Below, piece by piece: positions 6,996 through 42,701 of a stretch of 64,000 nucleotides of DNA; position 1 is the first letter of the stretch, and every line of letters starts with the position of its first letter. The position numbers and the translations under genes were made by a program. The notes under the pieces are model-generated. The model saw only the letters and a program-made list of their open reading frames with translations, had not been told where the DNA came from and searched no databases. Source of the DNA: Acetoanaerobium noterae (GTDB lineage Bacteria > Bacillota > Clostridia > Peptostreptococcales > Filifactoraceae); contig NZ_FUYN01000001.1 in assembly GCF_900168025.1 (NCBI RefSeq), positions 1 to 64,000 of the forward strand, given 5' to 3'.

Positions 6996-7071
6996 CTTCG
7001 CTGGGGCAGACTCTAATGGGACGAAAGTAGATATAATTAAGGCTAATAAGCATAAATACAGTATCAGCGCC
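6980..7071 (+). repeat. inverted repeat flanking the OrfA/OrfB junction, with an inner hairpin
   Basis: GGCGCTGATAC at 6980-6990 is the exact reverse complement of GTATCAGCGCC at 7061-7071. Between them, 6990-7006 forms CCCTAGC-TTC-GCTGGGG, a seven-pair stem with one G-U. The structure covers the point where IS3 elements shift frame. It may influence or destroy frameshifting. Confidence 0.55.
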
Positions 7072-7869: not shown

Positions 7870-7990
7870 TAAGTGTTGACAATCCATCCCTTCTGTTTTA
7901 GTAAATTAAATTATTAAGGTGGAACTCTCCAAACAATATAAATAAACAAAATGTAAATCCTCCTCTCTTTTTAAATTATCTTAAACTCAA

Positions 7991-9025
7991 TTAATCATAT
8001 GAATATAGGTCATGATTTACTTTTGATGTATAGTATAGGTTCATAGTTGAAGAAGCGTTATATAGCGATGTAATGATGTATGACCTTATGTCTTTAACTT
8101 GAGTAGTGTTTTTTGACAGGCAATCAATTACAAATTCTATATGCATATGATTTAGTTTTAAGAATCTAGACTTTATAATGCTAGCTGATGTATCACATCC
8201 ATTAACTCTAAATTTTTCTTTGGTTGAACAAACAATATCTAAAATTATTTGTACAATTTCAGCAACTAACTCTGGATTGCTATTATTCATTAATAAATCA
8301 AAATCGATATTCTGTTTGACAATTTTTTCATACTTTCTGTATTCTTGATCTGAAATTTCTTTATCATTTAGACTTCGTTTATTTAACTCTTTATCATCAT
8401 TCAATCCTTCACTTTCTTCTTCATTTTTTTCTTCTTCACTATTTTTATGATAGATAGAAGGATTAATATATATTTTATCTATATCGTTATCTATATATTT
8501 ATTAAGTGTCGTAATGTTTCCGGTTCTAGACTCGGAGCTTTTACGGTTTAAATCATTATTTGCTAGTGATTCGTAATTATTACGGTTCATTGATATATCA
8601 ATAATTGCATTATCTTCTATATTTTCTAACTCATTAAAATCTAATATGTCCTCATCTTGATTTTCTTTAATAATTTTTTCTATATCTGGATAAGTGAGGT
8701 ATATTAGATTAGGTCTTCCTTTTCCCTGCCTAACTTCTATAAGCAAGTTGTATTCTTTTAATTCATTTATAGCTTTGGTTATTGTTTTATCTGAGCTTCT
8801 TAATGTCTTTTCCATTTCCTCACGCTTCATAATTAGATATACATTGCCTTCTTTGTCAAACCATCTATTTTTTATAGATAGCTCATGTCTACTTTTTAAA
8901 AGAGAATATAGAATAATTGCTTTATCAGATATTTTGGGAAAATCTTCTAAAAAGAAAAAACTCGGCAGCTGATGAAATGAATTGTTGTATATATCATTAA
9001 CTGAAAATTTCTTTTGACTGTACAT
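7991..9025 (-). CDS. RepA_N-family replication initiator
   Basis: 344 residues. The N-terminal 120 residues match the RepA_N winged-helix domain: a SFHQLPSFFFLEDFPKISDKA opening split by the usual YSLLKSRHELS and NRWFDKEGNVYLIMKREEM blocks, then a recognition-helix-like SDKTITKAINELKEYNLL. The middle is low-complexity and acidic (repeated Glu/Asn). A C-terminal domain follows near residues 230-340. RepA_N proteins initiate replication of theta plasmids and of integrative elements in Firmicutes. GGAGG lies six bases before the ATG. With the recombinase remnant and the tRNA scar, it marks this region as a former autonomously replicating integrative element. Confidence 0.85.
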   Translation of the reverse strand: MYSQKKFSVNDIYNNSFHQLPSFFFLEDFPKISDKAIILYSLLKSRHELSIKNRWFDKEGNVYLIMKREEMEKTLRSSDKTITKAINELKEYNLLIEVRQGKGRPNLIYLTYPDIEKIIKENQDEDILDFNELENIEDNAIIDISMNRNNYESLANNDLNRKSSESRTGNITTLNKYIDNDIDKIYINPSIYHKNSEEEKNEEESEGLNDDKELNKRSLNDKEISDQEYRKYEKIVKQNIDFDLLMNNSNPELVAEIVQIILDIVCSTKEKFRVNGCDTSASIIKSRFLKLNHMHIEFVIDCLSKNTTQVKDIRSYIITSLYNASSTMNLYYTSKVNHDLYSYD

Positions 9026-28035: not shown

Positions 28036-29007
28036 TTATTCTTGTACTAGAGGGTATCCCTTATTAATCCATCCACCTTCACCTGTTGCTGGTGTTCCTG
28101 CTCCAAAGTTCATGGAAACTGCATCATATCCTAAAATTCTTAGACCTGCTACTGCTTGTCCAGCTGTTTGTCCTGTATAGCAGTAAACAATAATTTTTTT
28201 GTCTGTTGGTAAAGTTCCAAATGATTCTTGCATTCCCTTTCCAAATGGAATGTTAATTGCTCCTTCAATATGTCCTTTAGCATAATCTTCTGCTTTTCTA
28301 ACTGATAGGAACTGGATACTTTCATCCTTTGCATCTAATAAAGCTTTTGCATCATCTTCGCTTATCTTATGATTTTCGTAAGTAGTTCCTTTTGCTGCTA
28401 CTAACTCATCAAAGTACACTTTTATTGCATCCTTTAACTCTGGAGCAATATCTGCTGGAGTAGATTTTACTAGCTCTACAGCTTCTGTTTGAGTTACTTC
28501 CTCGATACCTTCAACATTTGAAAGTCCTAATTTCCATCCTAAGTTTATAGAACGAACATTATATCCAGCCATATTAAGAAGAGCTGTAGCTTGTCCAGCT
28601 GTTTGTCCTGTATAGCAGTATAAGTAAACATCTTTATCTACTGGTAAATTCTCAAGGTTTTCAGCTATTGCCGGCCCCCAAGGAATGTTTACTGCATTCT
28701 TAAGATGTCCTTTGTTATAGTCTTCGTTTGATCTAATATCAACTACCAACATATCTTCTTCTGCTTTTACTTTTTCAACCAATTCTTTTTCATCAATTTT
28801 GTAAATGTTTTCAGGCATATTCGCAAAATATGCATTTGCTGCGTCTTTAACTACATCGGCTTCTTCTACTTGCTCAGTTTCAGTGCTCTCAACTGGTGCT
28901 TGAGGAGCTTCTTGAGCTGGCTCTTGAGATGGAGCACATGCTGCAAGTGATAAAGACATAATTAATGCAAGTGAAATAACAGAAAACTTTGATTTCAATC
29001 TTTTCAT
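28036..29007 (-). CDS. surface lipoprotein with two rhodanese domains
   Basis: 323 residues. A lipobox (SLAACAPS) near residue 24 is followed by a Gln/Glu/Pro-rich linker and two rhodanese-like domains, near 65-165 and 200-320. Both retain a Cys-centred active loop with the same sequence CYTGQTAGQA and a preceding SNEDYNKGHLKNAVNIPWG or KAEDYAKGHIEGAINIPFG block. Rhodaneses carry a persulfide on that Cys. The outward location implies extracellular sulfane-sulfur chemistry, for instance on thiosulfate or polysulfide, linking it to the YeeE/TusA cluster 8 kb away. AGGAGG precedes the ATG; single-gene unit. Confidence 0.88.
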   Translation of the reverse strand: MKRLKSKFSVISLALIMSLSLAACAPSQEPAQEAPQAPVESTETEQVEEADVVKDAANAYFANMPENIYKIDEKELVEKVKAEEDMLVVDIRSNEDYNKGHLKNAVNIPWGPAIAENLENLPVDKDVYLYCYTGQTAGQATALLNMAGYNVRSINLGWKLGLSNVEGIEEVTQTEAVELVKSTPADIAPELKDAIKVYFDELVAAKGTTYENHKISEDDAKALLDAKDESIQFLSVRKAEDYAKGHIEGAINIPFGKGMQESFGTLPTDKKIIVYCYTGQTAGQAVAGLRILGYDAVSMNFGAGTPATGEGGWINKGYPLVQE

Positions 29008-29195: not shown

Positions 29196-30851
29196 ATGAA
29201 AATAAATAAAAATCAAATATTGTTATTCATAACTATAATTTCATATATATCCTTAAATCTAATTTATTTAGATAAATTTCCTTTCGTTCATTCTGATGAG
29301 CCATGGCTTAGCGGCTTATCTAAAAATATGCTCGAAAATACCTCATTATCTGTTACTGAACCTTTTTTTGATTTAATGCCTAGATATCCTCATGCATTAA
29401 AAGTAATTTTTCATTTGATTCAAATCCCTTTCATCTACTTTTTGGGTTATAATATTTTTTCAGTGAGATTAATATCTCTTATCTTTGGTCTATTGACACT
29501 ATTTATATTTTATATTTTGTTAAAAAAGCTCACAAATAAAACTTTAATTTCCTATTTAGGCACACTTTTATTAGCTGTAGACATTCAATTTATTTATGCT
29601 TCACATTTTGCAAGGCAAGAAATACTCTTGCTTTTTATATTTCTAGTTTCCCTATACATTTTATTTATCTGTAGATTTAATATAACTTTGACACCATCTA
29701 GAAACCAAAAATTAAATATGCTTTTTAATAAGCTTTCTGTTTTTACAATAAAAAGCGAGCCACTTTTAATTGGCTCGCTAATTGGCTTATCCATAGGAAT
29801 TCATCCTAATAGTTTTATAATATTTTTACCTATTTTTTTAATTTATAGTTTTGAATTTTTTTACAATAAACAAAAAAAAGATTATAAAATTTTTATATTT
29901 TTAACAACAGTCTCTTTGTTCGCTGCTTCATTTGTGCTACTTAGCTTTTATTTCGATAGTGACTTTGTAGCTCATTACTTTTCTTATGGCAAAAGTTTTA
30001 AGGTTGACTCATCTATTGTTGGAAAAATAAAAGGTTTTACTAAATTTTACAAGGATATTATAGAGCGAAACGGAAAAACATATTACATACCTAATCTGGA
30101 TTTCCAGTTTGTATTTTTTATAACTACTTTTATTTTATCTTTAATTGAATTAGTAAAAAACTATACAAATAATAAAAAAACTGAATTTACATGTTTATTA
30201 TATATGATTTTAAGTATAGCAGGTTTAAATTTAGGAGCTATGATTATTGGAAGATTTAATCAAACAAGTATTATTTTTCAGTTCCCACTTTATTATATTT
30301 TAGCCGTGTTATTAGTCAGAAACTTAAGTTCTAAAGCCCAAAATCTAGTCTTAATTAGCATAATAATTATTTCTAGCTATTTTTCATATATAAATATAAT
30401 GCCCTATAAGAATCTCGAATATAATTCATATCTAAAGGTCTTAAATGCTATACCATCGGATAGTATAGTATTAAGCAATCTAAATACTCACTATTATTTT
30501 CAAAACTCAAATTTTTATGATTATAGAAATTTGCCATATCTTGAAGAAAATAATTTAAGCATTAAGGAATATATTGAAAAAAATAAAATTGAATATATAG
30601 TAATCACTGAAGATCTAAGTTTTTTTTATAATAATAAGCCTCACTATAATGGGGTTTATGGCAATATAAATTTTTATCCAGATTTAGAAGTATTTTTAGC
30701 TCAAAGATGCAGTATAATTTCAAAAAGTAAATCTAGACTTTATCCCATGCATATGGTTAAATTCACTGGCCTTTATGAAGAATACAAATCCATTGCTGTT
30801 AAGGATTACTGGGACATTACAATTTATAAAGTTAATTACCCAATTAACTGA
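29196..30851 (+). CDS. GT-C membrane glycosyltransferase (ArnT/PMT-like, GT39/GT83 type)
   Basis: 551 residues with about eleven membrane segments. The first extracytoplasmic loop has HSDEPWLSG near residue 34, with the acidic residue expected for the GT-C catalytic centre, and a second loop has ASHFARQEILLL near 132. Length is like ArnT (about 550). Such enzymes move a sugar from a polyprenyl-phosphate donor to an acceptor outside the membrane. A GT2 of the polyprenyl-phosphate-sugar synthase type is encoded 4 kb away in the convergent operon and could make its donor. The end overlaps the ABC ATPase gene by 16 bases on the opposite strand. Acceptor unknown. Confidence 0.78.
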   Translation: MKINKNQILLFITIISYISLNLIYLDKFPFVHSDEPWLSGLSKNMLENTSLSVTEPFFDLMPRYPHALKVIFHLIQIPFIYFLGYNIFSVRLISLIFGLLTLFIFYILLKKLTNKTLISYLGTLLLAVDIQFIYASHFARQEILLLFIFLVSLYILFICRFNITLTPSRNQKLNMLFNKLSVFTIKSEPLLIGSLIGLSIGIHPNSFIIFLPIFLIYSFEFFYNKQKKDYKIFIFLTTVSLFAASFVLLSFYFDSDFVAHYFSYGKSFKVDSSIVGKIKGFTKFYKDIIERNGKTYYIPNLDFQFVFFITTFILSLIELVKNYTNNKKTEFTCLLYMILSIAGLNLGAMIIGRFNQTSIIFQFPLYYILAVLLVRNLSSKAQNLVLISIIIISSYFSYINIMPYKNLEYNSYLKVLNAIPSDSIVLSNLNTHYYFQNSNFYDYRNLPYLEENNLSIKEYIEKNKIEYIVITEDLSFFYNNKPHYNGVYGNINFYPDLEVFLAQRCSIISKSKSRLYPMHMVKFTGLYEEYKSIAVKDYWDITIYKVNYPIN

Positions 30852-31558
30852 TATATCTTATCGTATAAATCTAAAATCTCATTATTTTTTAATCGATGTT
30901 CTTTAGGTATGTTTAGAGGAATGTCTATAATAGTATCTCCTAAAACAACTATTCTATCTGATATATTTAGCGCCTCTAAAATATCATGGGTGACAAATAA
31001 AACTGTCATCTCTTTTTTCTCACTCAAATCGACTAGTAGATTTTGCATTGAAGTTCTAGTTTGTGCATCTAGACTGGCAAATGGCTCATCCATGAGAAAA
31101 AGTGCTGGATTAAGGCAAAGTGCTCTTGCCAGTGCTACCTTTTGCTTCATCCCTCCAGAAAGTTGAAAAGGATATTTATTTAAATCATCATCGTATTCTA
31201 CAAGCGATAAATAGTTTCTTGCCAGACTGACTATATCATTTTTTCTAAATTTAGATTTTTTACGCTTTTCAAGAGGAAAGCTAACATTTTGAAGCACTGT
31301 TTTCCAAGGAAAAAGCTGATTGAAATTCTGAAAAATCATAAATACTTTATAATCATAAGCACTATTGTTTATCTCTATATAGCCTTCATCTTTTGTTTCC
31401 ATCGATGCAATTAATCTAAGTAAAGTTGATTTTCCACAACCTGATTTCCCAAGTATGCTAACAAATTCGCCTTTCATAATACAAAGCGATAAATCTGAAA
31501 TAACTTTGCTTCCCTTATATGACTTATTTAAATTTTTAATTTCTAAAATAGGTTTCAT
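30836..31558 (-). CDS. ABC transporter ATPase, NitT/TauT (SsuB/TauB) type
   Basis: About 240 residues. Walker A is GKSGCGKST, the signature is LSGGMKQKVALARAL, and Walker B is LFLMDEPFASLDAQT. The family drives uptake of sulfonates, nitrate, taurine, thiamin precursors and similar small molecules. The start is placed at 31558 because its ATG overlaps the permease stop as TAATG; an earlier in-frame ATG at 31573 is less likely. It is the last gene of the six-gene operon. Confidence 0.88.
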   Translation of the reverse strand: MKPILEIKNLNKSYKGSKVISDLSLCIMKGEFVSILGKSGCGKSTLLRLIASMETKDEGYIEINNSAYDYKVFMIFQNFNQLFPWKTVLQNVSFPLEKRKKSKFRKNDIVSLARNYLSLVEYDDDLNKYPFQLSGGMKQKVALARALCLNPALFLMDEPFASLDAQTRTSMQNLLVDLSEKKEMTVLFVTHDILEALNISDRIVVLGDTIIDIPLNIPKEHRLKNNEILDLYDKIYQLIG

Positions 31559-32322
31559 TATATCATTCCCCATTTTTTTAAAGTTTTGTTTTCAAAAACT
31601 GAAAATAAATAATCCACCAAAGCACCTAATAGTACAATTACTATAAGACTTGCATACATAGCATTTGTATCCATAAAAACTCTTTTTTCAAATATATAAT
31701 ACCCGATACCACTTTTTCCATCGATAGCTCCGAATATCATTTCTGCTCCTATTAAAGCTCTCCAAGCTCTAGCCCAAGCTACTTTTAGCCCTGTAATAAC
31801 GCTTGGCAGTGCACCGATTAGCTGAATTTCAAAAAAACGCTGAAGCTTATTTATTCCAATCAAATCTGCTAGCTCTCTATATACTATAGGCTGAGTCTTT
31901 ATTCCACTCTTAATATTCACCATAACAGGCCAAATTACAGAGTGAAGAATAATAAAAATAATAGAATTTTTCCCCGTTCCAAACCACAAAATAACTATAG
32001 GAAGTATAGCTAAAGAAGGAAGTGGATCTAGCATTGAAGCCAATGTATCTGATAAGCTATCTATATATTTGTTATTCAAAGAAAAAATTACTAACATACA
32101 TGCAACTAAAAATCCCAAAGCAAGACCTTTGAGAATAAATGAAATAGAGTATGCTAATTTAATGTGTAAATCTTCCTGAAAAAACGAGTGTCCTAGAGCA
32201 GTAATAACTGAGCTAGGAGACGGAAATAATATTGGATTAAATATCTCAAGTTTAAACAATATTGACCATAGCATTACTATTAAAAAAATCCAAAAAAATT
32301 TAATTTTAATCATAGTACCCAT
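31558..32322 (-). CDS. ABC transporter permease, NitT/TauT (SsuC) type
   Basis: 254 residues and about six membrane helices, with the cytoplasmic EAA-type loop ELADLIGINKLQRFFEIQLIGALP that docks on the ATPase. The binding-protein-dependent permease fold of the SsuC/TauC group fits. The gene overlaps the substrate-binding gene by up to 17 bases; ATG 32322 or 32313 could start it. Gene order (binding protein, permease, ATPase) is usual for the family. Confidence 0.87.
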   Translation of the reverse strand: MGTMIKIKFFWIFLIVMLWSILFKLEIFNPILFPSPSSVITALGHSFFQEDLHIKLAYSISFILKGLALGFLVACMLVIFSLNNKYIDSLSDTLASMLDPLPSLAILPIVILWFGTGKNSIIFIILHSVIWPVMVNIKSGIKTQPIVYRELADLIGINKLQRFFEIQLIGALPSVITGLKVAWARAWRALIGAEMIFGAIDGKSGIGYYIFEKRVFMDTNAMYASLIVIVLLGALVDYLFSVFENKTLKKWGMI

Positions 32323-33283
32323 CCCATATTACTTCTTTTTCGTTATAAGCTTTTGATATATACTCTACCTTATTCATAAATTCACTAAATCTATTTACTC
32401 CCTTTATTTCCTGATTAAACTTTACCCCTTCCATATTCATAAAATCCTTGCTTTCCGGTATTGTCATATTGTATTTATCAGAAAAAATAGCAGCACTATC
32501 TTCAGGGTTAGCTTCAATATAAATAAGGGCATCCTTGATAGCTTCATTTAAGATTTTAACTTTTTTTATATCTGTTTCATTTTCTATTTTTCCAGCACCT
32601 ATTATAAATGTGAATTCTTCTCCAAAAGCTTCATTAGATTCCAGTATTATTTTCATGTCTTTGTCTTTTAATTCCATCTGAGTATACGGAGGTGTTGTAA
32701 AGTGTCCTTTTATTTCGTTTTTAGTTCTAAGTATATCCATAGCATCAGGGTGACTCATTGCAAGTAGCATAGAATCAAATTTTTTCGGCTCATTAAAAGC
32801 TTTATCTGCTGCCATTGAAAGTAAAATGTGCTGTACACTCCCTTGCTGAGGTAATGCTATTTTATCCTGAGCAGTAAAGTCCCCAAGAGTATTTATATCT
32901 GGCGAATTTACTACAAGTGATGAAGGAACACTAGAAAGTCCTGTAAAAGCTTTCCAGTTCATACCTTTATCATATCCAATCAAAAATGGAGGAATCGCCA
33001 TAAATCCAAAATCTATATCCCCAGAAAGCATACCTTCTCTTATAGCAGCAGTATTTCCAAGCTGCTTCCAGCTAATAGTTGTATTAGGATACTTTTTTTC
33101 TATAATTTTATTAATTTGGATTATCTCAAGTGGAAAATAGGCAGTTCCAAATTGATATCCTATATTAATCTCTAGATTATCTGTATTTTCGGCTTTTTTT
33201 GAAGAACACGATATTAAATTCATTGAAACTATTACTACAAGCAAAATCACAGCTGACGTTTTTAATTTATTATATATTCTCAT
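32306..33283 (-). CDS. ABC transporter substrate-binding lipoprotein, NitT/TauT type
   Basis: About 325 residues. A lipobox (MNLISCSS) is followed by a periplasmic-binding-protein type 2 fold of the SsuA/TauA/NMT1 group: EINIGYQFGTAYFPLEI at the start of the mature part, GMLSGDIDFGFMAIPPFL, and LPQQGSVQHILL. The ligand is not readable. Sulfonates, taurine-like compounds and thiamin precursors are all known for the family. ATG 33283 is preceded by GGGGG nine bases upstream; the ORF's earlier GTG lies in that site. It follows the ATP-grasp gene by about 20 bases. Confidence 0.83.
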   Translation of the reverse strand: MRIYNKLKTSAVILLVVIVSMNLISCSSKKAENTDNLEINIGYQFGTAYFPLEIIQINKIIEKKYPNTTISWKQLGNTAAIREGMLSGDIDFGFMAIPPFLIGYDKGMNWKAFTGLSSVPSSLVVNSPDINTLGDFTAQDKIALPQQGSVQHILLSMAADKAFNEPKKFDSMLLAMSHPDAMDILRTKNEIKGHFTTPPYTQMELKDKDMKIILESNEAFGEEFTFIIGAGKIENETDIKKVKILNEAIKDALIYIEANPEDSAAIFSDKYNMTIPESKDFMNMEGVKFNQEIKGVNRFSEFMNKVEYISKAYNEKEVIWDGYYD

Positions 33284-33305
33284 CGTAATTACCCCCACTA
33301 CATCA

Positions 33306-34541
33306 TTAATTTTCTAAATCAAGTAGAATATTTTCATTGTGCTCATTATATATTTTTAGTTTACTAAAAACTCTATCAATATTTTCATCTAGGTTAACTT
33401 TATTATCTCCTTTTATAACTACATATCCAACTCTAAGTCTAGCGTCTTGAATGTCTCCAAGTATATCTCCAGCCTTATAATTATATCCAGCTGCTAAAAC
33501 CCCATTCATTGATACGATTTCATTTATATCAGTCATTTTATTTATTAAGCCTGGCTTTGCAAATAACATAATAACCTTTAAAAACTCTTTGTTTTTATCT
33601 ATATCATAGTTCTCAATTTTAGAAATATCGATTTTTTCTCCAAGGCTCGATTTAATCAGAAAATCTAAAAAGTCGACTCCAGTTATTATAGGAATAAAAA
33701 TATCTTCATAAGCTCCTCCTATTCTAGCAGCTATTTCATTTACAATTATTCCCCTATTTCCAATTAACAGTTGATAATAAATAGGTCCATTTTCAATATC
33801 AAATGCTGTTGTTATTCTTTCACTTATATCATGTATTTCTTTATAATATTTATCATAATATTTAGAAGGAAAAACATGGCTCTTGCATATACCTATATGT
33901 TTACCTGAGCTAAAAGTATTTCTATCTGTTATAGTAAGTATTTTCAGCTTTTTATTATAGACCCACCCACTTACAGTAATCTCGTCTGATTCATAATACT
34001 CTTCAATGAGTGCTATATTAGCTCTTGAAAATGTCAACACTGAGTCGATATCAGTCTTTATTTCCTCTATAGTATTTAATTTGTATACTCCTCTTTGTCC
34101 TTGACTATCAATGGGTTTTATAACGAAGGGAGGATTTAAATTACTTAATTCTTCCTCCATAAAATTTTTACTTATAAATCTGAAATTTGCAGTTGGTATA
34201 TTATTTTTTTCAAATATTTGTTTCATTTTACTTTTGTTAGTAACGTTTACTGCCGTTTCTACATCAATACAAAAAGGTAACCCTAATTCTTCTGAAACTT
34301 TTGCGCAAGTCAAAACTGGCTGATCTGTACCTAAAGTCATTACTCCATTTATATTAAATTTTTTCGCTTCCTCTAAGCATCTACCGTAATCAAAAGTGCT
34401 CGCTTTAACAAAAGTATCTGCAATTTCTCTGCCTGGTGGATTATCAAGATAATCAGCTACAATAACTTCATGACCAAATTCTTTTGCTTTATTTATTGCA
34501 TTGACTTGACATGAGCCTCCTCCTAATATCATTAATTTCAA
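33306..34541 (-). CDS. ATP-grasp ligase (carbamoyl-phosphate-synthase-like)
   Basis: 411 residues. The N-terminal pre-ATP-grasp domain begins MILGGGSCQVNAINKAKEFGHEV. ATP-binding is shown by PFVIKPIDSQGQRGVY, and the Mg-binding end by IVNEIAARIGGAYED. This group (PurK/LysX/carboxylate-amine ligases) forms acyl-phosphates from carboxylic acids and joins them to amines. TTG start with AAGGAGG upstream; TTGA overlap with the GT2 stop. Sitting after an aminosugar transaminase, it could join an amino acid to an amino sugar or sugar lipid. That role is inference from context. Confidence 0.82.
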   Translation of the reverse strand: MKLMILGGGSCQVNAINKAKEFGHEVIVADYLDNPPGREIADTFVKASTFDYGRCLEEAKKFNINGVMTLGTDQPVLTCAKVSEELGLPFCIDVETAVNVTNKSKMKQIFEKNNIPTANFRFISKNFMEEELSNLNPPFVIKPIDSQGQRGVYKLNTIEEIKTDIDSVLTFSRANIALIEEYYESDEITVSGWVYNKKLKILTITDRNTFSSGKHIGICKSHVFPSKYYDKYYKEIHDISERITTAFDIENGPIYYQLLIGNRGIIVNEIAARIGGAYEDIFIPIITGVDFLDFLIKSSLGEKIDISKIENYDIDKNKEFLKVIMLFAKPGLINKMTDINEIVSMNGVLAAGYNYKAGDILGDIQDARLRVGYVVIKGDNKVNLDENIDRVFSKLKIYNEHNENILLDLEN

Positions 34542-35290
34542 GAGTTTTTCCTCCTTAATTTGATAAAATCTATTTCATACTGAGGTCTTTTATTGATATA
34601 AGTATCAAAATTTAATCTGCTATAATAAATAATTAAATTTATATAGAGCCTAACTAATTTTCTTATATTATAATTTGATTTCCCCACTTCTCTTCGTCTA
34701 TGACTTACATCTATATATGTTACATTTGTAGTTCTTTTAAATAATAAAGCTGATATATAAATAAAGTTTTTATCTGTTTTTATTATTTCGTCTATGATAT
34801 TTTTTCTTATTACTCTAAAACTTCCTATTTTTATATGCTTTGGTTTTCCAACAAGCACATTAAATGTACTATTCGTCAATTTACTTCCTAAATTTCTATA
34901 TAAATTATGTTGCTTATGCTTAGCAACACCATAAACTGCATCAAAACCTTGGTTGAGCCTTTCTTCCATTTTGAAAATCTCAGTTACTGGATTTTGCAAA
35001 TCATCATCCATAGTAACAACTAAATCATATACACAATATCTAAACCCACACAAAATTGCATTTTGCTGTCCATAATTTTTCTTTAATGAAATTACAGTTG
35101 TTTTATCTGGGTATTCACTGTAGATTTTATTTAGTACATCTAAACTTTCATCTTTGCTTGAATCATTGACAAATATCACTTCAAAATCTTTATTTTTATT
35201 TATAAACTCACTATATATTTCTTTAAATAAACTCATCAAAGTTAAACTACTATTATAAACAGGAACTACAATTGATATTTTGGATTTCAT
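34538..35290 (-). CDS. family 2 glycosyltransferase, polyprenyl-phosphate sugar synthase type
   Basis: 250 residues. The GT-A fold shows ISIVVPVYNSSLTLMSLF, EVIFVNDSSKDES, the metal-binding VTMDDDLQNPV and a YRNLGSKLTN segment. It is like DPM1, ArnC and GtrB, which put a sugar on polyprenyl phosphate, but it lacks the C-terminal pair of membrane helices. The end is rich in Arg/Lys/Tyr, suggesting a peripheral membrane position. It overlaps the aminotransferase stop as ATGA and the ATP-grasp start as TTGA, so the three proteins are made in close ratio. Confidence 0.87.
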   Translation of the reverse strand: MKSKISIVVPVYNSSLTLMSLFKEIYSEFINKNKDFEVIFVNDSSKDESLDVLNKIYSEYPDKTTVISLKKNYGQQNAILCGFRYCVYDLVVTMDDDLQNPVTEIFKMEERLNQGFDAVYGVAKHKQHNLYRNLGSKLTNSTFNVLVGKPKHIKIGSFRVIRKNIIDEIIKTDKNFIYISALLFKRTTNVTYIDVSHRRREVGKSNYNIRKLVRLYINLIIYYSRLNFDTYINKRPQYEIDFIKLRRKNS

Positions 35291-36435
35291 AATATCTGTT
35301 CTCCAACAAAATTATCTATATAATCACAAACATAATTAATCTCTTTTTCAGAAATAGCATTATACAACGGAAGCCTTAGTAAGCGTTGACTTAGATTATC
35401 AGTATACTTTAGCTCATTACTCTCAAAACCATATTTTTTCCCCATAATTGAATTATGTAGCGGAATAAAATGAAAAGCTGAACCTATATTATGCTTTTTT
35501 AAAAAAGTCTGAAGTTCATCTCTAATAATTTTGTTCTTTGTAATTATATAAAAAATATGATTATTGGAATTTGCATACTCAGGTAAAATCATAGGTCTAA
35601 AATAGTTTTTATATTTCTTTTTACTCAATCTTTCTAAATATATGCTAGCAAGTTTTTTTCTTTTACTATTTATTCTATCAAAGTTTTCAAGTTGACTACA
35701 CAAAACTGCCATCAGAATTTCTGATGGACAATAACTTGATCCTTGATCTACCCACTCATATTTTGACACCTTTCCATTAATTAAATCTTGTCTATTTGTT
35801 CCTTTTTGTCTTATAATTTCAGCTTTTTTTAGCCACTCTTTATCTTTTCTATTTATAATTAAACATCCTGCTTCTCCTGCTATGAAATTCTTGGTACTAT
35901 GAAAGCTAATGCATGCCATATCCCCCATGCTTCCTAGATTTTTATCATAAAATTTTGAACCTAATGCTTGAGCCGCATCTTCAATAACAGGTAGTTTATA
36001 TTTTTTTGATATTTCCATAATTTTATCCATATCACAGGCTATTCCTGCATAATGCATAACTATAATTGCCTTTGTCTTACTAGAGATATTTTTTTCAATT
36101 TCCTCAGGAGATATATTCATGGTTTTTGGATCCAAATCAACAAAAACAGGAGTAGCTCCTCTTAATACTATGCAATTAGCTGCCGATGGGAAATTAAATG
36201 AAGCCAATATAACTTCATCTCCTTGCTTAAAATCAAGTATAAGTGCCGCCATTTCCAAAGCATGAGTAGCCGAGGTTGTCATATATACTTCTTGAAACCC
36301 AAATTTATCTTTTAATAAAGCTTTTGCCTTGCTTGTATATTTTCCATCTGAAGCTGTAACTCCAATATCAAAGGCATCTTTAACATATTCTAGTTCTTGT
36401 TCAAAGTGATATTCCTTATGAAAAGGTATTTCCAT
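35287..36435 (-). CDS. DegT/DnrJ/EryC1 aminotransferase, WecE (RffA)-like
   Basis: 382 residues. PLP-binding motifs are clear: TTSATHALEMAAL, HYAGIACDMDKIM, VIEDAAQALGS and the Schiff-base Lys in SFHSTKNFIAGEAG. Blocks such as EIIRQKGTNRQD, YEWVDQGSSY and HFIPLHNS match WecE, the dTDP-4-amino-4,6-dideoxygalactose transaminase of enterobacterial common antigen. It would transaminate a 4-keto-6-deoxy nucleotide sugar with glutamate. No RmlA/RmlB-type genes are in the window, so the substrate must come from elsewhere. First gene of the six-gene operon, divergent from a TusA-like gene with a shared promoter region. Confidence 0.88.
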   Translation of the reverse strand: MEIPFHKEYHFEQELEYVKDAFDIGVTASDGKYTSKAKALLKDKFGFQEVYMTTSATHALEMAALILDFKQGDEVILASFNFPSAANCIVLRGATPVFVDLDPKTMNISPEEIEKNISSKTKAIIVMHYAGIACDMDKIMEISKKYKLPVIEDAAQALGSKFYDKNLGSMGDMACISFHSTKNFIAGEAGCLIINRKDKEWLKKAEIIRQKGTNRQDLINGKVSKYEWVDQGSSYCPSEILMAVLCSQLENFDRINSKRKKLASIYLERLSKKKYKNYFRPMILPEYANSNNHIFYIITKNKIIRDELQTFLKKHNIGSAFHFIPLHNSIMGKKYGFESNELKYTDNLSQRLLRLPLYNAISEKEINYVCDYIDNFVGEQIL

Positions 36436-36501: not shown

Positions 36502-36554
36502 TAACTTAATTATTAATTTTGTTTAGTAATCAAACCACAGTCAGGAGAATAGAA

Positions 36555-36773
36555 ATGATAGAGATTGATTGTCTAGGTGATATGTGTCCAGTTCCAATCC
36601 TTAAACTTAAAGACGCAATTAAAACTGCTTCTGCTAACCAAACTATAAAATTAATCACTGACCATAGCTGCGTTTTAGAAAATATAAAAGATATTCTTCA
36701 AAAATCCCCCTACACTTTCTATTTTGATGAAGTTATAACTGGTGTATGGGAAATTTTTGTAGAGGTAAATTAA
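36555..36773 (+). CDS. TusA-family sulfur carrier
   Basis: 72 residues from ATG 36555, which has AGGAG eight bases before it; an earlier ATG at 36519 has no ribosome site. The TusA fold is shown by IDCLGDMCPVPILKLKDAI with the persulfide-carrying Cys in CPVP. TusA-like proteins pass sulfane sulfur between enzymes, and those next to YeeE-type channels (YeeD/TsuB) handle thiosulfate. The end overlaps the convergent LysR stop. A second copy is at 38648. Confidence 0.88.
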   Translation: MIEIDCLGDMCPVPILKLKDAIKTASANQTIKLITDHSCVLENIKDILQKSPYTFYFDEVITGVWEIFVEVN

Positions 36774-37666
36774 CAAAAGCTTTTTTCTCCTACTTTTTTA
36801 AGGAAATCAATAAACTCTTTTACGCTTGTATCCATCTCTTTATCCTTTTTATAAATTATGTTTACATCATATTCTAAGCTCTCATCAAAAACTTTAATTT
36901 CTTTTAATTGTTTAAGATACAGCTCCTTTTTAATAGAGCTATATGGAAGAATCGATATTCCTAAGCTCTTTATCAATAATGTTTTTATAGATTCTATAGA
37001 ATCTAAACTAAATAACACATTCTGATTTTTTATATCAAAGCCTAAATCCATAAGTTTCTTTTCTAATACTTTTTGAGCTTTATACTCTTCGATTAAAAGT
37101 ATCATAGGATACCTATTTAACTCATCTACAGCTATTTTATCTGGTATATCATAATCTTTTTCTGCAACAATCACCATTCTATCCCTACCAACTGAGGAAT
37201 AAAATAAATCATTATTATCAGGTGCTCCTTCAATAAATCCCACATCACAAACGTCATTTATTATGTTGCTTTCAACCTTCTGTGAGTAGTCGGAATTAAG
37301 ATAGTAATTATAATTCGAATATTTTTCTTTTATCATATATATAGTACATGGAAGTGCATAAGTTGCCATCGTAGGAAAGGCATCTATTCTTATAGCCTTA
37401 TTGTTATTGCTTATATCATTTAAATCTACTAGCATATTTTCATATACCTTTAATATATTCTTTGCATATTTTTCAACAATTTTGCCAGCCTCAGTTAACT
37501 GAACTCCTTTATTGCTTCTATCTAAAAGCTTATATCCTAGATTATCCTCTAATTTATGTATCTGCTGGCTGAGTGCAGGCTGTGAAATATGTGAATTATT
37601 AGCAACTTTTGATATGCTTTTCACTGATGCTACCTCATAAAAAAATCTTAAGTATTCAATGTTCAT
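36770..37666 (-). CDS. LysR-family transcriptional regulator of the sulfur/aminosugar region
   Basis: 298 residues. The helix-turn-helix reads SISKVANNSHISQPALSQQI, then KLEDNLGYKLLDRSNKGVQLT; a typical effector domain follows. AAGGAGA precedes the ATG. It is divergent from the YeeE operon and lies two genes from the aminotransferase operon. The ATACTTATAG motif occurs in both intergenic regions, so it may control both. A CysB/CysL-like sulfur-sensing role is inference. Confidence 0.88.
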   Translation of the reverse strand: MNIEYLRFFYEVASVKSISKVANNSHISQPALSQQIHKLEDNLGYKLLDRSNKGVQLTEAGKIVEKYAKNILKVYENMLVDLNDISNNNKAIRIDAFPTMATYALPCTIYMIKEKYSNYNYYLNSDYSQKVESNIINDVCDVGFIEGAPDNNDLFYSSVGRDRMVIVAEKDYDIPDKIAVDELNRYPMILLIEEYKAQKVLEKKLMDLGFDIKNQNVLFSLDSIESIKTLLIKSLGISILPYSSIKKELYLKQLKEIKVFDESLEYDVNIIYKKDKEMDTSVKEFIDFLKKVGEKSFC

Positions 37667-37894: not shown

Positions 37895-38605
37895 ATGTCT
37901 GAAATTAATTCTACAGAAACTTCTGCTTCTTCAAGAAGAAGTAGTAGAGCTTCATCTAGCTCACGCAGAAAACCTAAGAAGAACCAGATTCCCTTTGGAA
38001 TAGGAATTTTTTTCTTCATTGTATTGTTTGGTATTTATCTATCAACAAAATCAAGTAATTTAGCTTTCTTTTGGATTACAGGTAATGCTTTTGGATTTAT
38101 ACTTCAAAAATCAAGATTTTGCTTTACAGCTTCCATGAGAGACCCGCTTTTAACTGGAAGCACTAGCGTTACTAGAGCTGTAATGGTAGCTTTAGCAATT
38201 ACTACGCTTGGATTTACAGCAATAAAATATGGAGCACATATAAACGGGCTTCCTATTCCTGGTCAAGGTTACATAGTTCCAATAAGCTTTGCCACTATAT
38301 TTGGAGGAGTAATTTTTGGTATAGGTATGGTTATAGCAGGAGGCTGTGCTTCTGGAACTCTGATGAGAGTTGGTGAAGGCTTTCAAATGCAAATGCTATC
38401 ATTAGTATTCTTTGTAATAGGTTCTTTGGTTGGTGCAAATAACTTTGGTTGGTGGCATAAAGTATTTATTTCTAAAGGGCCATCGGTTTTCCTTCCAGAT
38501 ATTTTCGGTTGGGCGGGGGCTGTAGTTGTACAGCTACTTATTATTGCAGGTGTGTATATTTTAGCTGATAAATGGGAAAATAAAAAAACCAATGAAGCTA
38601 ATTAA
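37895..38605 (+). CDS. YeeE/YedE-family sulfur-compound transporter, first half
   Basis: 236 residues. An unusual Ser/Arg-rich N-terminal tail (about 30 residues, cytoplasmic) precedes five or six membrane segments. Family motifs are SRFCFTASMRDPLL and MVIAGGCASGTLMRVGEG, both containing the conserved Cys that relay thiosulfate through YeeE (TsuA). The complete YeeE is about 350 aa, so this is one of two half-size proteins; the other is at 38918. A TusA-like gene sits between. In related anaerobes such proteins are linked to thiosulfate or selenium compounds. Confidence 0.87.
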   Translation: MSEINSTETSASSRRSSRASSSSRRKPKKNQIPFGIGIFFFIVLFGIYLSTKSSNLAFFWITGNAFGFILQKSRFCFTASMRDPLLTGSTSVTRAVMVALAITTLGFTAIKYGAHINGLPIPGQGYIVPISFATIFGGVIFGIGMVIAGGCASGTLMRVGEGFQMQMLSLVFFVIGSLVGANNFGWWHKVFISKGPSVFLPDIFGWAGAVVVQLLIIAGVYILADKWENKKTNEAN

Positions 38606-38647: not shown

Positions 38648-38872
38648 ATGAAAGAAGTAATATTAGATTGTCTAGGCGAGGCTTGTCCAATTCCACTGGT
38701 TAAATCAGAAAATGCTATGAAAGAGTTAGCTTCTGGTGACGTACTTATAGTGCAAATCGACCACAGCTGTGCTATGAAAAATGTACCTGAATGGGCAAGA
38801 AAAGAAGGACATAATGTAGAAATCGAAGAAGTAGATGACGGTGAGTGGGAAGTAATAATAGAAAAGGCATAA
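38648..38872 (+). CDS. TusA-family sulfur carrier, between two YeeE genes
   Basis: 74 residues, with LDCLGEACPIPLVKSENAM and the sulfur-carrying Cys in CPIP, then QIDHSCAMKNVPEWA. TAAGGAGG precedes the ATG. Placement between two YeeE halves matches YeeD/TsuB beside YeeE/TsuA, the protein that takes sulfur from imported thiosulfate. The stop codon lies in the centre of a perfect palindrome. Confidence 0.9.
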   Translation: MKEVILDCLGEACPIPLVKSENAMKELASGDVLIVQIDHSCAMKNVPEWARKEGHNVEIEEVDDGEWEVIIEKA

Positions 38873-38917: not shown

Positions 38918-39451
38918 TTGGATATAAAGAATAATAAATATTATAAATTATGGTTTAAGGATCCAATGACTTATGTTATGGGTGCTGTATTACTTTCAGT
39001 TTTTCAAATAATAACCTTTGCCGTTACTGGTAACCCATGGGGTGTTACTGGACCATTTGCAAATTGGGGCGCTTGGGTATTTGAATTATTTGGTGGAAAT
39101 GTGGATAGCTGGAGTTATTTTAGTACAAAAAGTGCTCAAGCAACTTTAAAAGCTGGATTTTTAAATGATCCAGGGTCAATAAGAAATTTAGGTGTAATTG
39201 TTGGAGCACTTTTTTCTACTCTAATGGCATCTCAGTTTAAATTCAAAAAAATCAAAAGCAAGAAGCAAGTAATAGCTGCCGTTTTAGGAGGATTTTTGAT
39301 GGGTTATGGCGCTAGACTAGCTTATGGATGTAATATAGGAGCTTTCTATAGTGGTATAGCTTCATTATCACTATCAGGCTGGATATTTGGAATAGCGCTT
39401 TTCATAGGAGCTTTTTTAGGTAGCAAGCTTTTAGTAAAATACTTCATGTAG
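38918..39451 (+). CDS. YeeE/YedE-family transporter, second half
   Basis: 177 residues with about four membrane segments. The signature is GYGARLAYGCNIGAFYSG, with the conserved Cys. TTG start, supported by AAGGAGGT at 38903-38910. Together with the protein at 37895 it would make a complete YeeE-like channel. It is followed after nine bases by the thioredoxin reductase fusion. Confidence 0.87.
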   Translation: MDIKNNKYYKLWFKDPMTYVMGAVLLSVFQIITFAVTGNPWGVTGPFANWGAWVFELFGGNVDSWSYFSTKSAQATLKAGFLNDPGSIRNLGVIVGALFSTLMASQFKFKKIKSKKQVIAAVLGGFLMGYGARLAYGCNIGAFYSGIASLSLSGWIFGIALFIGAFLGSKLLVKYFM

Positions 39452-39460
39452 GAGGACAAA

Positions 39461-40684
39461 ATGGATAAAAAAGTTGAATCATATGACGTAGTAGTTATAG
39501 GTGGTGGAGCTGCTGCCCTTACAGCTGCAATTTATTGTGGTAGAGCTAGATTAAACACTCTAGTAATAGAGAAATCTTTAGTAGGTGGACTTGCTACATA
39601 TACAAATGAAATTGAAAACTATCCTGGATTTCCAGAAGGAACAACAGGTCTAGGTTTAATGGACAACTTTCATAAGCAAGCAAAGAAATTTGGAGTAAAG
39701 TTCAAGCTTACAGATGTAAAATCTGTTGATTTAGAAGGAGAAATAAAAAAAGTAGAAACATTTAGAAATATTTTCGAAGCTAAAGTCGTTATAGTTGCTT
39801 CAGGCGGAAAACCTAGATTAACTGGAGCTAAAAATGAGGAGCTTTTCCTATATGATAAAGGAATTTCATTTTGTGCTACCTGCGACGCTGCTTCAAATAC
39901 GGATAAAACAGTATTAGTAGTTGGTAGTGGAGATGCTGCTATCGAAGAGGGTATGTTTTTAACTAAGTTTGCAAAAAAAGTTATTGTTTCTGTAATGCAT
40001 GATACAGGTAAGATGGACTGTAACGAAATCGCAAAAAATGAAGCCCTTCAAAACTCAAAAATGGATTTCAAATGGAATACAGTAGTTGATAGCTTTGAAG
40101 GTGATGAAAGACTGACTAGAGTAAACTTAAGAAATGTTAAAACTAATGAAATTATTCCTATAGATGTAGATTCTTGTTTCTTATTCATCGGATATATTCC
40201 TAACACAGAAATATTCAAAGGTATTCTTGATATGAATAAGAATGGTTATATGCTTACAAATGAAAAAATGGAAACTAATATCGAAGGAGTTTTTGCTGCT
40301 GGTGATGTTAGAGATAAATTCCTTAAGCAGGTTGCGACAGCAGTTGGCGATGGCGCTATTGCTGGTTACGCAGCAGAAAAATATCTTGCAGAAAGCGAGA
40401 CCTTCCACACTCAAATCATGAGCAAAGACCTTCCAGGCGTAGTTTATATTTGGAATGCCGTTGATGAAAAATGTAGAGAGCTTCTTCCAATAATAGACAG
40501 CTTTGAAGCAAAATATAAAGACAAAGTTAAAGTGACAAAAGTAGATATATATAAATCAACTGGTCTTGCTAACAGACTTGGTGTTACTACTTTCCCTGCT
40601 CTTGTTGCTACTAGAGATGGTAAAATATCTAAAATCATCAAAGAAATTGATAATGAGCAAGATGTAGAAGCAGCATTTATTTAA
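39461..40684 (+). CDS. thioredoxin reductase fused to a thioredoxin-like domain
   Basis: 407 residues. The first 310 are a low-molecular-weight thioredoxin reductase: FAD motif VVIGGGAAALTAAIY, active-site SFCATCDAAS, NADPH motif VLVVGSGDAAIEEG and FAD-binding VFAAGDV. The last ~90 residues are a thioredoxin fold (VVYIWNAVDEKC ... LGVTTFPALVA). In this domain the usual CGPC is DEKC, so only the second Cys remains, while the cis-Pro is kept. It may pass electrons to sulfur carriers instead of acting as a normal disulfide reductase. It closes the YeeE/TusA operon. Confidence 0.9.
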   Translation: MDKKVESYDVVVIGGGAAALTAAIYCGRARLNTLVIEKSLVGGLATYTNEIENYPGFPEGTTGLGLMDNFHKQAKKFGVKFKLTDVKSVDLEGEIKKVETFRNIFEAKVVIVASGGKPRLTGAKNEELFLYDKGISFCATCDAASNTDKTVLVVGSGDAAIEEGMFLTKFAKKVIVSVMHDTGKMDCNEIAKNEALQNSKMDFKWNTVVDSFEGDERLTRVNLRNVKTNEIIPIDVDSCFLFIGYIPNTEIFKGILDMNKNGYMLTNEKMETNIEGVFAAGDVRDKFLKQVATAVGDGAIAGYAAEKYLAESETFHTQIMSKDLPGVVYIWNAVDEKCRELLPIIDSFEAKYKDKVKVTKVDIYKSTGLANRLGVTTFPALVATRDGKISKIIKEIDNEQDVEAAFI

Positions 40685-40724: not shown

Positions 40725-40757
40725 AAAATAGACCCATTAAAGGGTCTATTTTTTCAT
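40725..40757. terminator. bidirectional terminator between convergent genes
   Basis: AAAAAATAGACCC and GGGTCTATTTTTT pair around ATTAAA, with T-runs on both strands, between the thioredoxin reductase and molybdoenzyme genes. Confidence 0.9.
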
Positions 40758-42701
40758 TTCAATATCTACGAATGTTTCATGGTAAGAGACTTGCCCTCCA
40801 ATATCAGAGCTTTCGCTCGAGGTCAAAATATTTGGATTTCCGTGTTTTTGGTGATAGCCTGTATAAATGTACACTACTTCATCCTCCCCTTGCACTCTAA
40901 CTTTTGCCTCTATACTTCCTTTGTCATTTTTTACTATAACTGTATCTTCATTATCTAGGTCTTTTTCTTTTGCTATTTTTTCAGACATATAAACTAATGG
41001 TATTCCTTCATAGTCAAAAAGATGCTGACTAAATAACGAATCCTTTCTGTGTGGAGTAAGTAGTCTATATGGATACTTAGGCAGTTTCATATCACATTGC
41101 AAGATTGCCATAGGATATCCCCAAGCCTTAGCTCTTTCTGAATAGAACTCATATTTTGTTGATGGAGTTTGAAATATCAAATCCTTATAGGGTACACTAC
41201 TAGCTTGCAAATTAACATAATCATTCTTTAGAGACTCTAGCGTTATGCCCTGTGATTTGACAGGCTCAATTACAGCCTTAATGTAATCTTTCTTTGGTAT
41301 ATCTGGAAAATCTATACCTATCAATTTTGAAACCGCTTTTATAAACTCAAATTCATCCATCAAAATATTATCAGGTTCTACTACCTTAGGATTGTAATTG
41401 AGATATGGGGAATTCATCGAGCTATAAATCAAATCTTCAGTTTCTAGAGTATTGCTACATGGTATAACTAAATCAGATAAATTTGCAGTATCTGTCATAA
41501 ACATATCGAAGGTTACTGTAAAATCAATAGATATAAATGCCTGATGAGACTTAAGTACATCTGCAAATTGAGACATTGGGTTAGCAGTAGAAATAATAGC
41601 CATCTTAACAGGTTCTTCTACTTGGGCTTTAATAAAATCAGCAAATTCATTTACAAAGAATTCTCTTTCATTTTTTTTATATTTTTCACTCTTAAAAGGA
41701 TCTAGATTCAAAAGCAAAGGATAAATTCTATTTGCATAATTTGCTCCTGCTCCCTCTACTCCTATATTTTTGCTTAAAAAACAAAGAGCATCAATAAGTC
41801 TAACTGAGTTTCCTCCATTGTTGTATTTTTGCATTCCATAACCTATATAAGTTGCACATGGAGAGTTGATATAAATATCTGCAAGAAAATCAAAGGTTTC
41901 TTCACTAAGCCCAGTTCTATCATATATGATTTTCATATCTATGCTTTTAATATAATCTATAAACTCAGTCCCTTTATGTGAATATTTATCTATATACTGA
42001 TAATCCAACTTGTCTTTGAATAAAAGTTTTTTAATGATTCCTATAGCCAGTGCATCATCACTTCCAGGCTTTGGCTTTATATGGTAATCAGATTTTTTTG
42101 CAGTTTCTGTGCTTATAGGATCTATTGTTATTATAGTCGCTCCATTTTTTTGTGCATCTAACACAGCTTTCATTAAATGAACCGATGTATTAGCAGGATT
42201 TCTCCCCCATAAAATTACAGCATTTGAGTTTAATAAATCCTCCAGCGAATGACCTAAAGCTCCTCCAAAATCACATTTCTGAGCTTCCATTCCAGCTGCC
42301 CAGCAGGTCCCTCCTTTAGAAGTAGTTATTCCTCCTAAGTAATTAAAAAAATGCTCCCAAGCAATGCTTTTCATAACTGACGAATCTCCTGATTCGCTAT
42401 ATCTTAAAATCGATGTAGAGCCATACTGCGATGTATATTTTGTTATTTTATGAGCAAAAATATTAACAGCTTCTTCAAATGAGATTTCTTTAAATTTTCC
42501 ATCTACCTTTAATAAAGGAGTTTTTAATCTATTCTTATCATAAAGTCTATCTAAGTGCTTCATCCCTTTCGAACACATAAAACCTTTAGTGTAAGGATGA
42601 TTTTTATCCGGTTTTATTGAGACTACTTTATTTTCGTCTACTTTAGCCACATATGTACATAAATCAAAACAATCTAAAGTACAAGCACGTTTAAACTCCA
42701 T
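40746..42701 (-). CDS. molybdopterin oxidoreductase with an iron-sulfur cluster (DMSO reductase family)
   Basis: 651 residues. The N-terminus binds a [4Fe-4S] cluster: CTLDCFDLC, then Cys in GFMCSKGM (spacing 3, 3, 27). Molybdopterin-binding regions include LWGRNPANT, TIDPISTETAKKSD and the C-terminal LLTPHRKDSLFSQH and VRVQGEDEVVYIYTGYHQKHG. A possible Mo ligand lies in GGTCWAAG. No in-frame TGA is present, so no selenocysteine. No signal peptide or partner subunit gene is adjacent, so it is probably cytoplasmic. Substrate unknown; position beside the sulfur cluster suggests a sulfur oxyanion, without proof. AGGAGG precedes the ATG. Confidence 0.88.
   Translation of the reverse strand: MEFKRACTLDCFDLCTYVAKVDENKVVSIKPDKNHPYTKGFMCSKGMKHLDRLYDKNRLKTPLLKVDGKFKEISFEEAVNIFAHKITKYTSQYGSTSILRYSESGDSSVMKSIAWEHFFNYLGGITTSKGGTCWAAGMEAQKCDFGGALGHSLEDLLNSNAVILWGRNPANTSVHLMKAVLDAQKNGATIITIDPISTETAKKSDYHIKPKPGSDDALAIGIIKKLLFKDKLDYQYIDKYSHKGTEFIDYIKSIDMKIIYDRTGLSEETFDFLADIYINSPCATYIGYGMQKYNNGGNSVRLIDALCFLSKNIGVEGAGANYANRIYPLLLNLDPFKSEKYKKNEREFFVNEFADFIKAQVEEPVKMAIISTANPMSQFADVLKSHQAFISIDFTVTFDMFMTDTANLSDLVIPCSNTLETEDLIYSSMNSPYLNYNPKVVEPDNILMDEFEFIKAVSKLIGIDFPDIPKKDYIKAVIEPVKSQGITLESLKNDYVNLQASSVPYKDLIFQTPSTKYEFYSERAKAWGYPMAILQCDMKLPKYPYRLLTPHRKDSLFSQHLFDYEGIPLVYMSEKIAKEKDLDNEDTVIVKNDKGSIEAKVRVQGEDEVVYIYTGYHQKHGNPNILTSSESSDIGGQVSYHETFVDIEMKK

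Follow-up and report, generated by a model that had tools for sequence, protein, structure and literature searches.

The first 64,000 nucleotides of contig NZ_FUYN01000001.1 of Acetoanaerobium noterae (hereafter the window, meaning this whole stretch) carry a gene island, conserved in many bacteria of anaerobic type, whose products appear to decorate the cell surface with an acylated amino sugar and which nearly always occurs alongside secreted sulfur-transfer proteins. Our judgment is that the island is a conserved variant of multi-component transmembrane glycosylation, equipped with a ligase and an importer and almost invariably accompanied by rhodaneses. We lean toward reading it as an amino-sugar decoration module with a dedicated importer that serves, or is needed together with, the handling of sulfane sulfur outside the cytoplasm. 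This reading is based on the gene set, its order, its co-occurrence across genomes and the families to which its proteins were assigned, all of which were observed directly.

The glycan half of the island comprises six tightly packed genes on the minus strand that converge on a seventh gene on the plus strand, an arrangement given in a preliminary description of the window and borne out by the coordinates of the open reading frames (ORFs). The six genes encode a DegT/WecE-type sugar transaminase resembling dTDP-4-amino-4,6-dideoxygalactose transaminases (35287-36435, 382 aa); a family 2 glycosyltransferase (GT2) of the ArnC/polyprenyl-phosphate type without C-terminal transmembrane helices (34538-35290, 250 aa); an ATP-grasp ligase of the L-amino-acid-ligase type with a TTG start (33306-34541, 411 aa); a NitT/TauT-type substrate-binding lipoprotein with a GTG start, an ATG 15 bp later being possible (32306-33298, 330 aa); and the permease (31558-32322, 254 aa; BPD_transp_1, 83 bits) and ATPase (30836-31573, 245 aa; ABC_tran, 107 bits) of an ATP-binding cassette (ABC) transporter, both over cut-off. 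The convergent gene encodes a PMT-like GT-C glycosyltransferase (29196-30851, 551 aa). The transaminase and GT2 genes overlap by 4 bp, as do the GT2 and ATP-grasp genes, and a gap of 7 bp (22 bp if the later ATG is the start) precedes the binding protein gene. This gene overlaps that of the permease by 17 bp, the permease and ATPase genes overlap by 16 bp, and the ends of the ATPase and GT-C genes also overlap by 16 bp. The families proposed in the preliminary description agree with our Pfam and NCBIfam profile matches.

Its boundary of seven genes was too narrow, as the island adds a LysR regulator, a split YeeE, TusA, a TrxB-Trx fusion and rhodanese lipoproteins. In the window, RhoA, a secreted two-domain rhodanese lipoprotein, is encoded at 28036-29007 on the minus strand. 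On the other side of the glycan genes, a TusA-like sulfur carrier (36519-36773, plus strand; TusA, 60.5 bits) lies between the transaminase gene and the LysR gene (36770-37666, minus strand), the best NCBIfam model for the latter being a selenium-metabolism-associated LysR (193 bits, cut-off 250). There follow on the plus strand a YeeE/YedE-like protein matching the first half of Sulf_transp (37895-38605; 111.9 bits), a second TusA-like protein that is TsuB/YeeD-like but below the cut-off of that model (38648-38872; TusA, 83.5 bits), a YeeE/YedE-like protein matching the second half of Sulf_transp (38918-39451; 118.5 bits) and TrxBA, a thioredoxin-reductase/thioredoxin fusion (39461-40684; Pyr_redox_2, 149.9 bits; Thioredoxin, 44.1 bits).

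We searched 297 genomes of the order, a genome-contig collection and 398 genomes of the phylum, took the DNA around the best ATP-grasp matches, called ORFs and labeled these with profiles built from clusters. After one locus was left out as a copy (L104, of L039) and another for its cut ATP-grasp ORF (L084), 64 loci remained, from which five remote ATP-grasp homologs in other contexts (L078-L081 and L083) were excluded to leave 59 island loci. Judged from their sequences, L078 and L080 among the excluded loci resemble flagellar and polysaccharide gene regions. Among the 59, we found GT2 in 54, LysR in 51, GT-C in 47, the transaminase and TusA in 45 each, the binding protein and the first half of YeeE in 43 each, the permease and RhoA in 42 each, the second half of YeeE in 41, the ATPase in 40, RhoB in 38, TrxBA in 36 and RmlB in 19. 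These counts are lower bounds because several loci end at contig ends. GT2 and ATP-grasp genes were adjacent in 54 of the 59 loci, binding protein and permease in 39, and permease and ATPase in 35; YeeE was divergent from LysR in 38, GT-C was followed by RhoB in 34, LysR by an opposed TusA in 34, ATP-grasp and binding protein were adjacent in 33, and RhoB and RhoA in 31.

The typical order is TrxBA, a YeeE half, TusA and the other YeeE half, then divergently LysR, an opposed TusA, transaminase, GT2, ATP-grasp, binding protein, permease, ATPase, an opposed GT-C, RhoB and RhoA. The window has this whole island except RhoB, and its RmlA and RmlB genes are also outside the island. In part of the loci the order varies, with the transaminase and RmlB downstream of the rhodaneses and the importer located across the YeeE block or at another site. 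The claim that the genes form a unit turned on whether their order extends beyond this strain, and our neighborhood analysis of the ATP-grasp gene showed that it does, far beyond it, among the 59 loci. This order is not due to chance, because it recurs in dozens of genomes whose ATP-grasp proteins have ~35-52% identity. Loci from the genome-contig collection were titled Halanaerobiales, Calditrichales, Eubacteriaceae and Spirochaetes. No ATP-grasp match was found in the genus and family mates of A. noterae within the order sample (G065 and nine family members), which suggests that the island was gained by transfer in its lineage.

Within the order, genomes were counted as positive for the ATP-grasp gene at an expectation value (E) of 1e-80 or lower (34 genomes), a line chosen after the gap to 1e-55 had been seen. 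Genome G024, with an ATP-grasp fragment at a contig end (48% identity, E 2.5e-37), was counted as negative, and RhoA was not found in it at 1e-50, the only threshold at which the order was searched for RhoA. At that threshold RhoA was present in 35 of the 297 genomes, comprising all 34 ATP-grasp genomes and one of the 263 others. That one genome (G007) carries the sulfur half; none of the ORFs in the 19 kb fetched from it was labeled as a glycan gene. In a sample of 249 genomes of the phylum, RhoA-like matches at E <= 1e-20 were found in 15/15 ATP-grasp positives versus 8/234 others, where the 234 takes all remaining genomes as ATP-grasp negative. Among 19 phylum positives (the window's genome excluded), all had a RhoA-like match at E <= 1e-15 and 12 had one at 1e-50. 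The binding protein was matched at E <= 1e-30 in 42 of the 297 genomes of the order: 32 of the 34 with ATP-grasp and 10 of the 263 others, those 10 forming a divergent branch, all of family f10 and all below 300 bits. The 300-bit line was set afterwards, the best match outside being 299.6 (G162) and the weakest inside 302.8 (G148, a truncated gene), followed by 354.6. It was used in the Fisher test for the importer, and all Fisher tests on co-occurrence ignore relatedness. The glycan system appears to be tied to extracytoplasmic sulfur transfer.

The sugar is probably dTDP-Fuc4N, since RmlB, and in locus L047 also RmlA, adjoins the transaminase in relatives and the transaminase itself is of the Fuc4N type, scoring 468 bits with PRK11706 (cut-off 375), along with 286 bits for DegT and 412 for the related model TIGR02379, under its cut-off of 435. 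RmlB was counted within the fetched stretches only. Elsewhere the genome of the window has two RmlB genes over cut-off, one of them beside an ORF that by eye is RmlA-like; RmlA and RmlB lie on another contig than the island. The GT2 protein scored 93.8 bits with its family model, and the best NCBIfam model was the ArnC-type PRK10714. Its DDD motif at 95-97 is invariant among 33 sequences, and 47 of 54 orthologs have no hydrophobic segment; soluble GT-A enzymes that work with a membrane protein encoded separately are known, GacI/GacJ being an example described in excerpts of PMC8035078. The GT-C protein matches PMT over cut-off (26.8 bits, cut-off 22.7), which supplies the GT-C expected of multi-component glycosylation; D34-E35 near its N-terminus is invariant among 36 sequences, and 43 of 47 proteins have 7-10 hydrophobic segments.

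Small membrane proteins resembling ArnE/ArnF were seen inside the modules of three relatives (L118, L121 and L044; EamA, with ArnE/ArnF models at 20-38 bits, under cut-off), and would support an Arn-like flip step. The preliminary description had suggested an Arn-like logic for the transaminase, GT2 and GT-C. This holds in outline, given these proteins and the RmlA and RmlB genes beside the transaminase, while the ArnB and ArnC models themselves remained below cut-off. Elsewhere in the genome of the window, at L140:129-6061, we noted another sugar locus with a GT2-like ORF, a transaminase and the one GtrA of the genome, which is probably a separate multi-component system. In L118, L119, L120, L121 and L122 the module is divergent, with a different protein of GT-C size between transaminase and GT2; that of L118 matched PMT_2 under cut-off.

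The ATP-grasp ligase of the preliminary description could be placed as an L-amino-acid-ligase type. The protein matches both ATP-grasp_4 (45.9 bits) and LAL_C2 (44.8 bits, cut-off 29.4) over cut-off, and its AlphaFold model (predicted local distance difference test score, pLDDT, of 95) has as top folds 4dim, 3vot, BacD/YwfE (3vmm) and RizA (4wd3), so that it has the ATP-grasp fold and LAL C-terminal domain of L-amino acid ligases. In L071 (8242-10275) a single open frame encodes both GT2 and ATP-grasp, as read from its sequence, and L073 (8156-10234), judged by length, has the same fusion, which argues that the two act together.

The substrate-binding protein fell under the cut-offs of NMT1_2 (24.0 bits, cut-off 24.7) and SsuA_fam (64.5, cut-off 163.5), and the top folds for its AlphaFold model (pLDDT 93) were TauA (6ssy) and SsuA (2x26), which gives it the fold of sulfonate-binding proteins. 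A lipobox Cys31 is present in 36 of 39 sequences, and Arg87, His157, His183 and Trp115 are invariant among the 39. In TauA, the amine of taurine is contacted by Glu106 and Asp205, according to excerpts of PMC6906117. In a weak HMMER alignment (36 bits) mapped by hand, Thr132 of TauA aligns with the invariant Ser154, and Glu106 and Asp205 have no conserved acid as counterpart, so taurine seems an unlikely ligand and was rejected as a candidate. The importer probably supplies an acid for the ligase, because its distant relatives are found near an acyl ligase in six of nine loci and one importer family accompanies two different acid-activating ligases, ATP-grasp and AMP-binding. These relatives are the divergent branch of family f10 (10 genomes, 258-300 bits), of which nine loci were examined and G269 was left out. 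Within the fetched flanks, an AMP-binding ligase was seen in 6/9 loci and a DltB-like MBOAT in 4/9; a conserved neighbor of ~380 aa in 6/9 resembles DltD (SGNH) by eye only and had no match in Pfam or NCBIfam. Of the remaining loci, L128 is a contig of 5.7 kb, and two had no ligase, MBOAT or ~380-aa protein in their flanks. In L124 the binding protein was seen without permease or ATPase. The loci with both the AMP-binding ligase and the DltD-resembling protein, L124-L127, L129 and L130, possibly represent a system for envelope acylation that has an importer to itself and has not been described before. In another locus (L131, genome G091), the importer immediately follows RmlB on the same strand, although ~27 kb separates it from the ATP-grasp gene.

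The YeeE and TusA proteins of the island belong to families of thiosulfate and selenium uptake. A lipobox-like motif was present in 31 of 42 RhoA and 36 of 38 RhoB proteins, and the RhoA of the window contains two rhodanese domains, compared with four in L052 and L121. By eye, the thioredoxin domain of the TrxBA fusion of the window (39461-40684) seemingly keeps a single active-site cysteine, and the reductase part keeps CATC.

We infer the catalytic steps, the importer ligand, the acceptor and the link between glycan and sulfur from these gene contents as follows. RmlA, RmlB and the transaminase would make a dTDP-4-amino-4,6-dideoxyhexose, probably dTDP-Fuc4N, and the ATP-grasp ligase would join to its amino group a small carboxylic acid or amino acid that the ABC importer is predicted to supply. 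The soluble ArnC-like GT2 would then move the sugar onto polyprenyl phosphate, a flippase would turn the polyprenyl-linked sugar over, and the GT-C would transfer it to an extracytoplasmic acceptor. The product may serve, or be needed together with, extracytoplasmic sulfane-sulfur handling by the rhodanese lipoproteins, YeeE and TusA under LysR regulation.

A different account of the same genes, which we rate as somewhat unlikely, is that a general polymer or lipid of the envelope, such as teichoic acid or a glycolipid, receives the acylated amino sugar, and that the tie to sulfur reflects shared regulation or lifestyle and not joint chemistry. Characterized multi-component systems do this, as in lipoteichoic acid glycosylation or Arn (excerpts of PMC8035078); the sulfur half stands alone in G007, and the glycan modules of L118, L119, L120 and L122 have no rhodanese in their fetched flanks, two of which end at a contig end. 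The genomes of these four loci are, however, among the 19 phylum positives that all have a RhoA-like match (12 at the stricter threshold), and the rhodanese lipoprotein in every ATP-grasp genome of the order and the placement of RhoB directly after GT-C in 34 of 59 loci also speak against purely incidental company. That same placement, together with the PMT-type family of the GT-C, is what would be expected if the GT-C O-glycosylates linkers of the rhodanese lipoproteins themselves and so protects or anchors them. The linkers were viewed in two examples only, and they disagree: the lipoprotein of L106 has a Thr/Pro-rich linker and the rhodanese of L112 lacks one. We consider such a role unlikely.

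We would also be surprised if the surface glycan were itself the sulfur carrier. A thiol-bearing acid, either cysteine or a mercapto or sulfo acid taken up from outside, would be placed on Fuc4N and displayed by the GT-C, the rhodaneses would charge it with sulfane sulfur that comes from thiosulfate or polysulfide, and YeeE and TusA would bring the sulfur in. If true, a surface sugar-thiol would play for these anaerobes the role of SoxYZ or glutathione elsewhere. Very unlikely, in our estimation, is that the ATP-grasp ligase and transaminase make a secreted small molecule, such as an amino-sugar dipeptide, which carries sulfur or a metal and re-enters the cell through the ABC importer. Importer, ligase and transaminase do adjoin, and importer matches track the ligase, but the ArnC-like GT2, the GT-C and the ArnE/ArnF-like partners point to a product that is polyprenyl-linked and membrane-bound, and no exporter family was found among the conserved island clusters.

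Several observations weigh against the decoration module with linked sulfur handling that we prefer. The co-occurrence counts are uncorrected for relatedness, and 28 of the 34 positives of the order are in one family (f2). Pairwise distances of island proteins correlate (r 0.50-0.88, 36 loci; 0.75 for ATP-grasp versus binding protein, 27 loci), a result that common descent alone partly predicts. The importer is not strictly required, because two ATP-grasp-positive genomes of family f11 (G120 and G095) have no importer match. RhoA also occurs without glycan genes (in the order in G007, L133, and in eight genomes of the phylum sample), and several loci of the phylum have YeeE, TusA or TrxBA missing from the vicinity of the module. 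TrxBA tracks the module loosely: at E <= 1e-120 it was found in 38 of the 297 genomes, was missing from G057 and G181, and was present in six genomes outside the 34. The window's module has no flippase gene, and its GT2 is far below the ArnC cut-off (138 of 529 bits). Finally, AsrC of anaerobic sulfite reductase exceeded its cut-off in 6 of the 34 genomes with the island, among them that of the window, versus 11 of 40 chosen others. Because AsrC does not track the island, a simple rhodanese-plus-Asr reduction of thiosulfate, which we had considered as a candidate, is unsupported.

Other genes near the islands were also noted. In the window, a 651-aa molybdopterin oxidoreductase is encoded at 40746-42701 on the minus strand, directly beyond the TrxB-Trx gene, and is not among the conserved island clusters. 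Profile searches found C_GCAxxG_C_C proteins beside the modules of L118 and L121 and a NapC-type cytochrome beside that of L118, with a similar ORF in L121. An NrfD/ferredoxin complex lies beside the module of L113, and in L044, from Spirochaetia, the gene that comes after the importer, at 7021-8985, encodes 654 aa with both an AIR-synthase-type and a ferredoxin-thioredoxin-reductase domain. A promoter scan of the window was uninformative, since it gave 67 promoter-like sites compared with 71.2 in shuffles; terminator-like sites numbered 11 versus 4.7.

In the literature searched, which had most subscription journals outside it, we found no description of this gene set or of a pairing of glycan and rhodanese genes. 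The island would join envelope amino-sugar decoration and extracytoplasmic sulfur transfer, a link that we did not find in print, and would also provide an instance of an importer devoted to supplying a ligase for envelope acylation. In excerpts of PMC10386464, the genomes of thiosulfate-reducing Fusibacter are reported to be without dsrAB, phsA/psrA and glpE, three of them having sudhAB for polysulfide, and Halanaerobium, in excerpts of PMC5497025, has increased levels of rhodaneses and of one subunit of sulfite reductase on thiosulfate. Multi-domain rhodanese lipoproteins together with sulfur transport are a candidate for thiosulfate uptake or reduction in such bacteria, with the glycan as an unexpected part. 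The evidence from Halanaerobiales consists of two metagenome-assembled genomes that carry the island, and carriage by the genera Fusibacter or Halanaerobium is not implied.

Comparison with known systems shows both likenesses and differences. The Sao ABC transporter, of selenocysteine-assisted organometallic metabolism, was rejected as an identity for the importer, as SaoX (28.8 of 300), SaoP (100.9 of 295) and SaoA (182.7 of 360) were all below cut-off. RhoB of L047 matches ExtH, a rhodanese-like protein of a selenite/tellurite reduction operon, but with 58 bits against a cut-off of 200. The Sulf_transp and TusA families are shared with the thiosulfate uptake pair TsuA/TsuB (YeeE/YeeD), whereas the YeeE-like protein of the island is split in two with TusA between, and cut-offs were not reached with two TsuA models by the first protein (72.2 of 400 and 64.1 of 645) or with TsuB/YeeD (55.7 of 147.5). 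The ligase shares its fold and LAL_C2 domain with the L-amino acid ligases BL00235 (3vot), RizA (4wd3) and BacD/YwfE, and differs from them in having 15-18% identity over the structural alignment and in its linkage to sugar genes. The distant importer relatives bear a likeness to Dlt D-alanylation, as their neighbors include an AMP-binding ligase and a DltB-like MBOAT (146 of cut-off 375, one scanned), with no carrier protein recognized near these importers in the nine loci; unlike Dlt, the window relies on an ATP-grasp ligase and on glycosyl transfer, and no MBOAT is among the conserved island clusters.

The Arn (Ara4N) system of lipid A resembles the island in its transaminase, ArnC-like GT2 and GT-C and, in relatives, ArnE/ArnF-like proteins. 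By model cut-offs the island does not belong to Arn, as its Fuc4N-type transaminase scored 213 bits with ArnB (cut-off 631) and its GT2 was similarly short of ArnC. The Arn system has ArnA formylation in place of an ATP-grasp ligase, and the island has in addition its importer and sulfur genes. With the multi-component systems GtlA/GtcA/GtlB, CsbB/GtcA/YfhO and GacI-L, as described in excerpts of PMC8035078, the island shares a GT-C and, in its GT2, a candidate for the GT-A/GT2 polyprenyl-phosphate enzyme. It differs from them in that no GtrA-type flippase was seen in the window's island, and in that it would make and acylate an amino sugar by dedicated genes and has both an importer and secreted rhodaneses.

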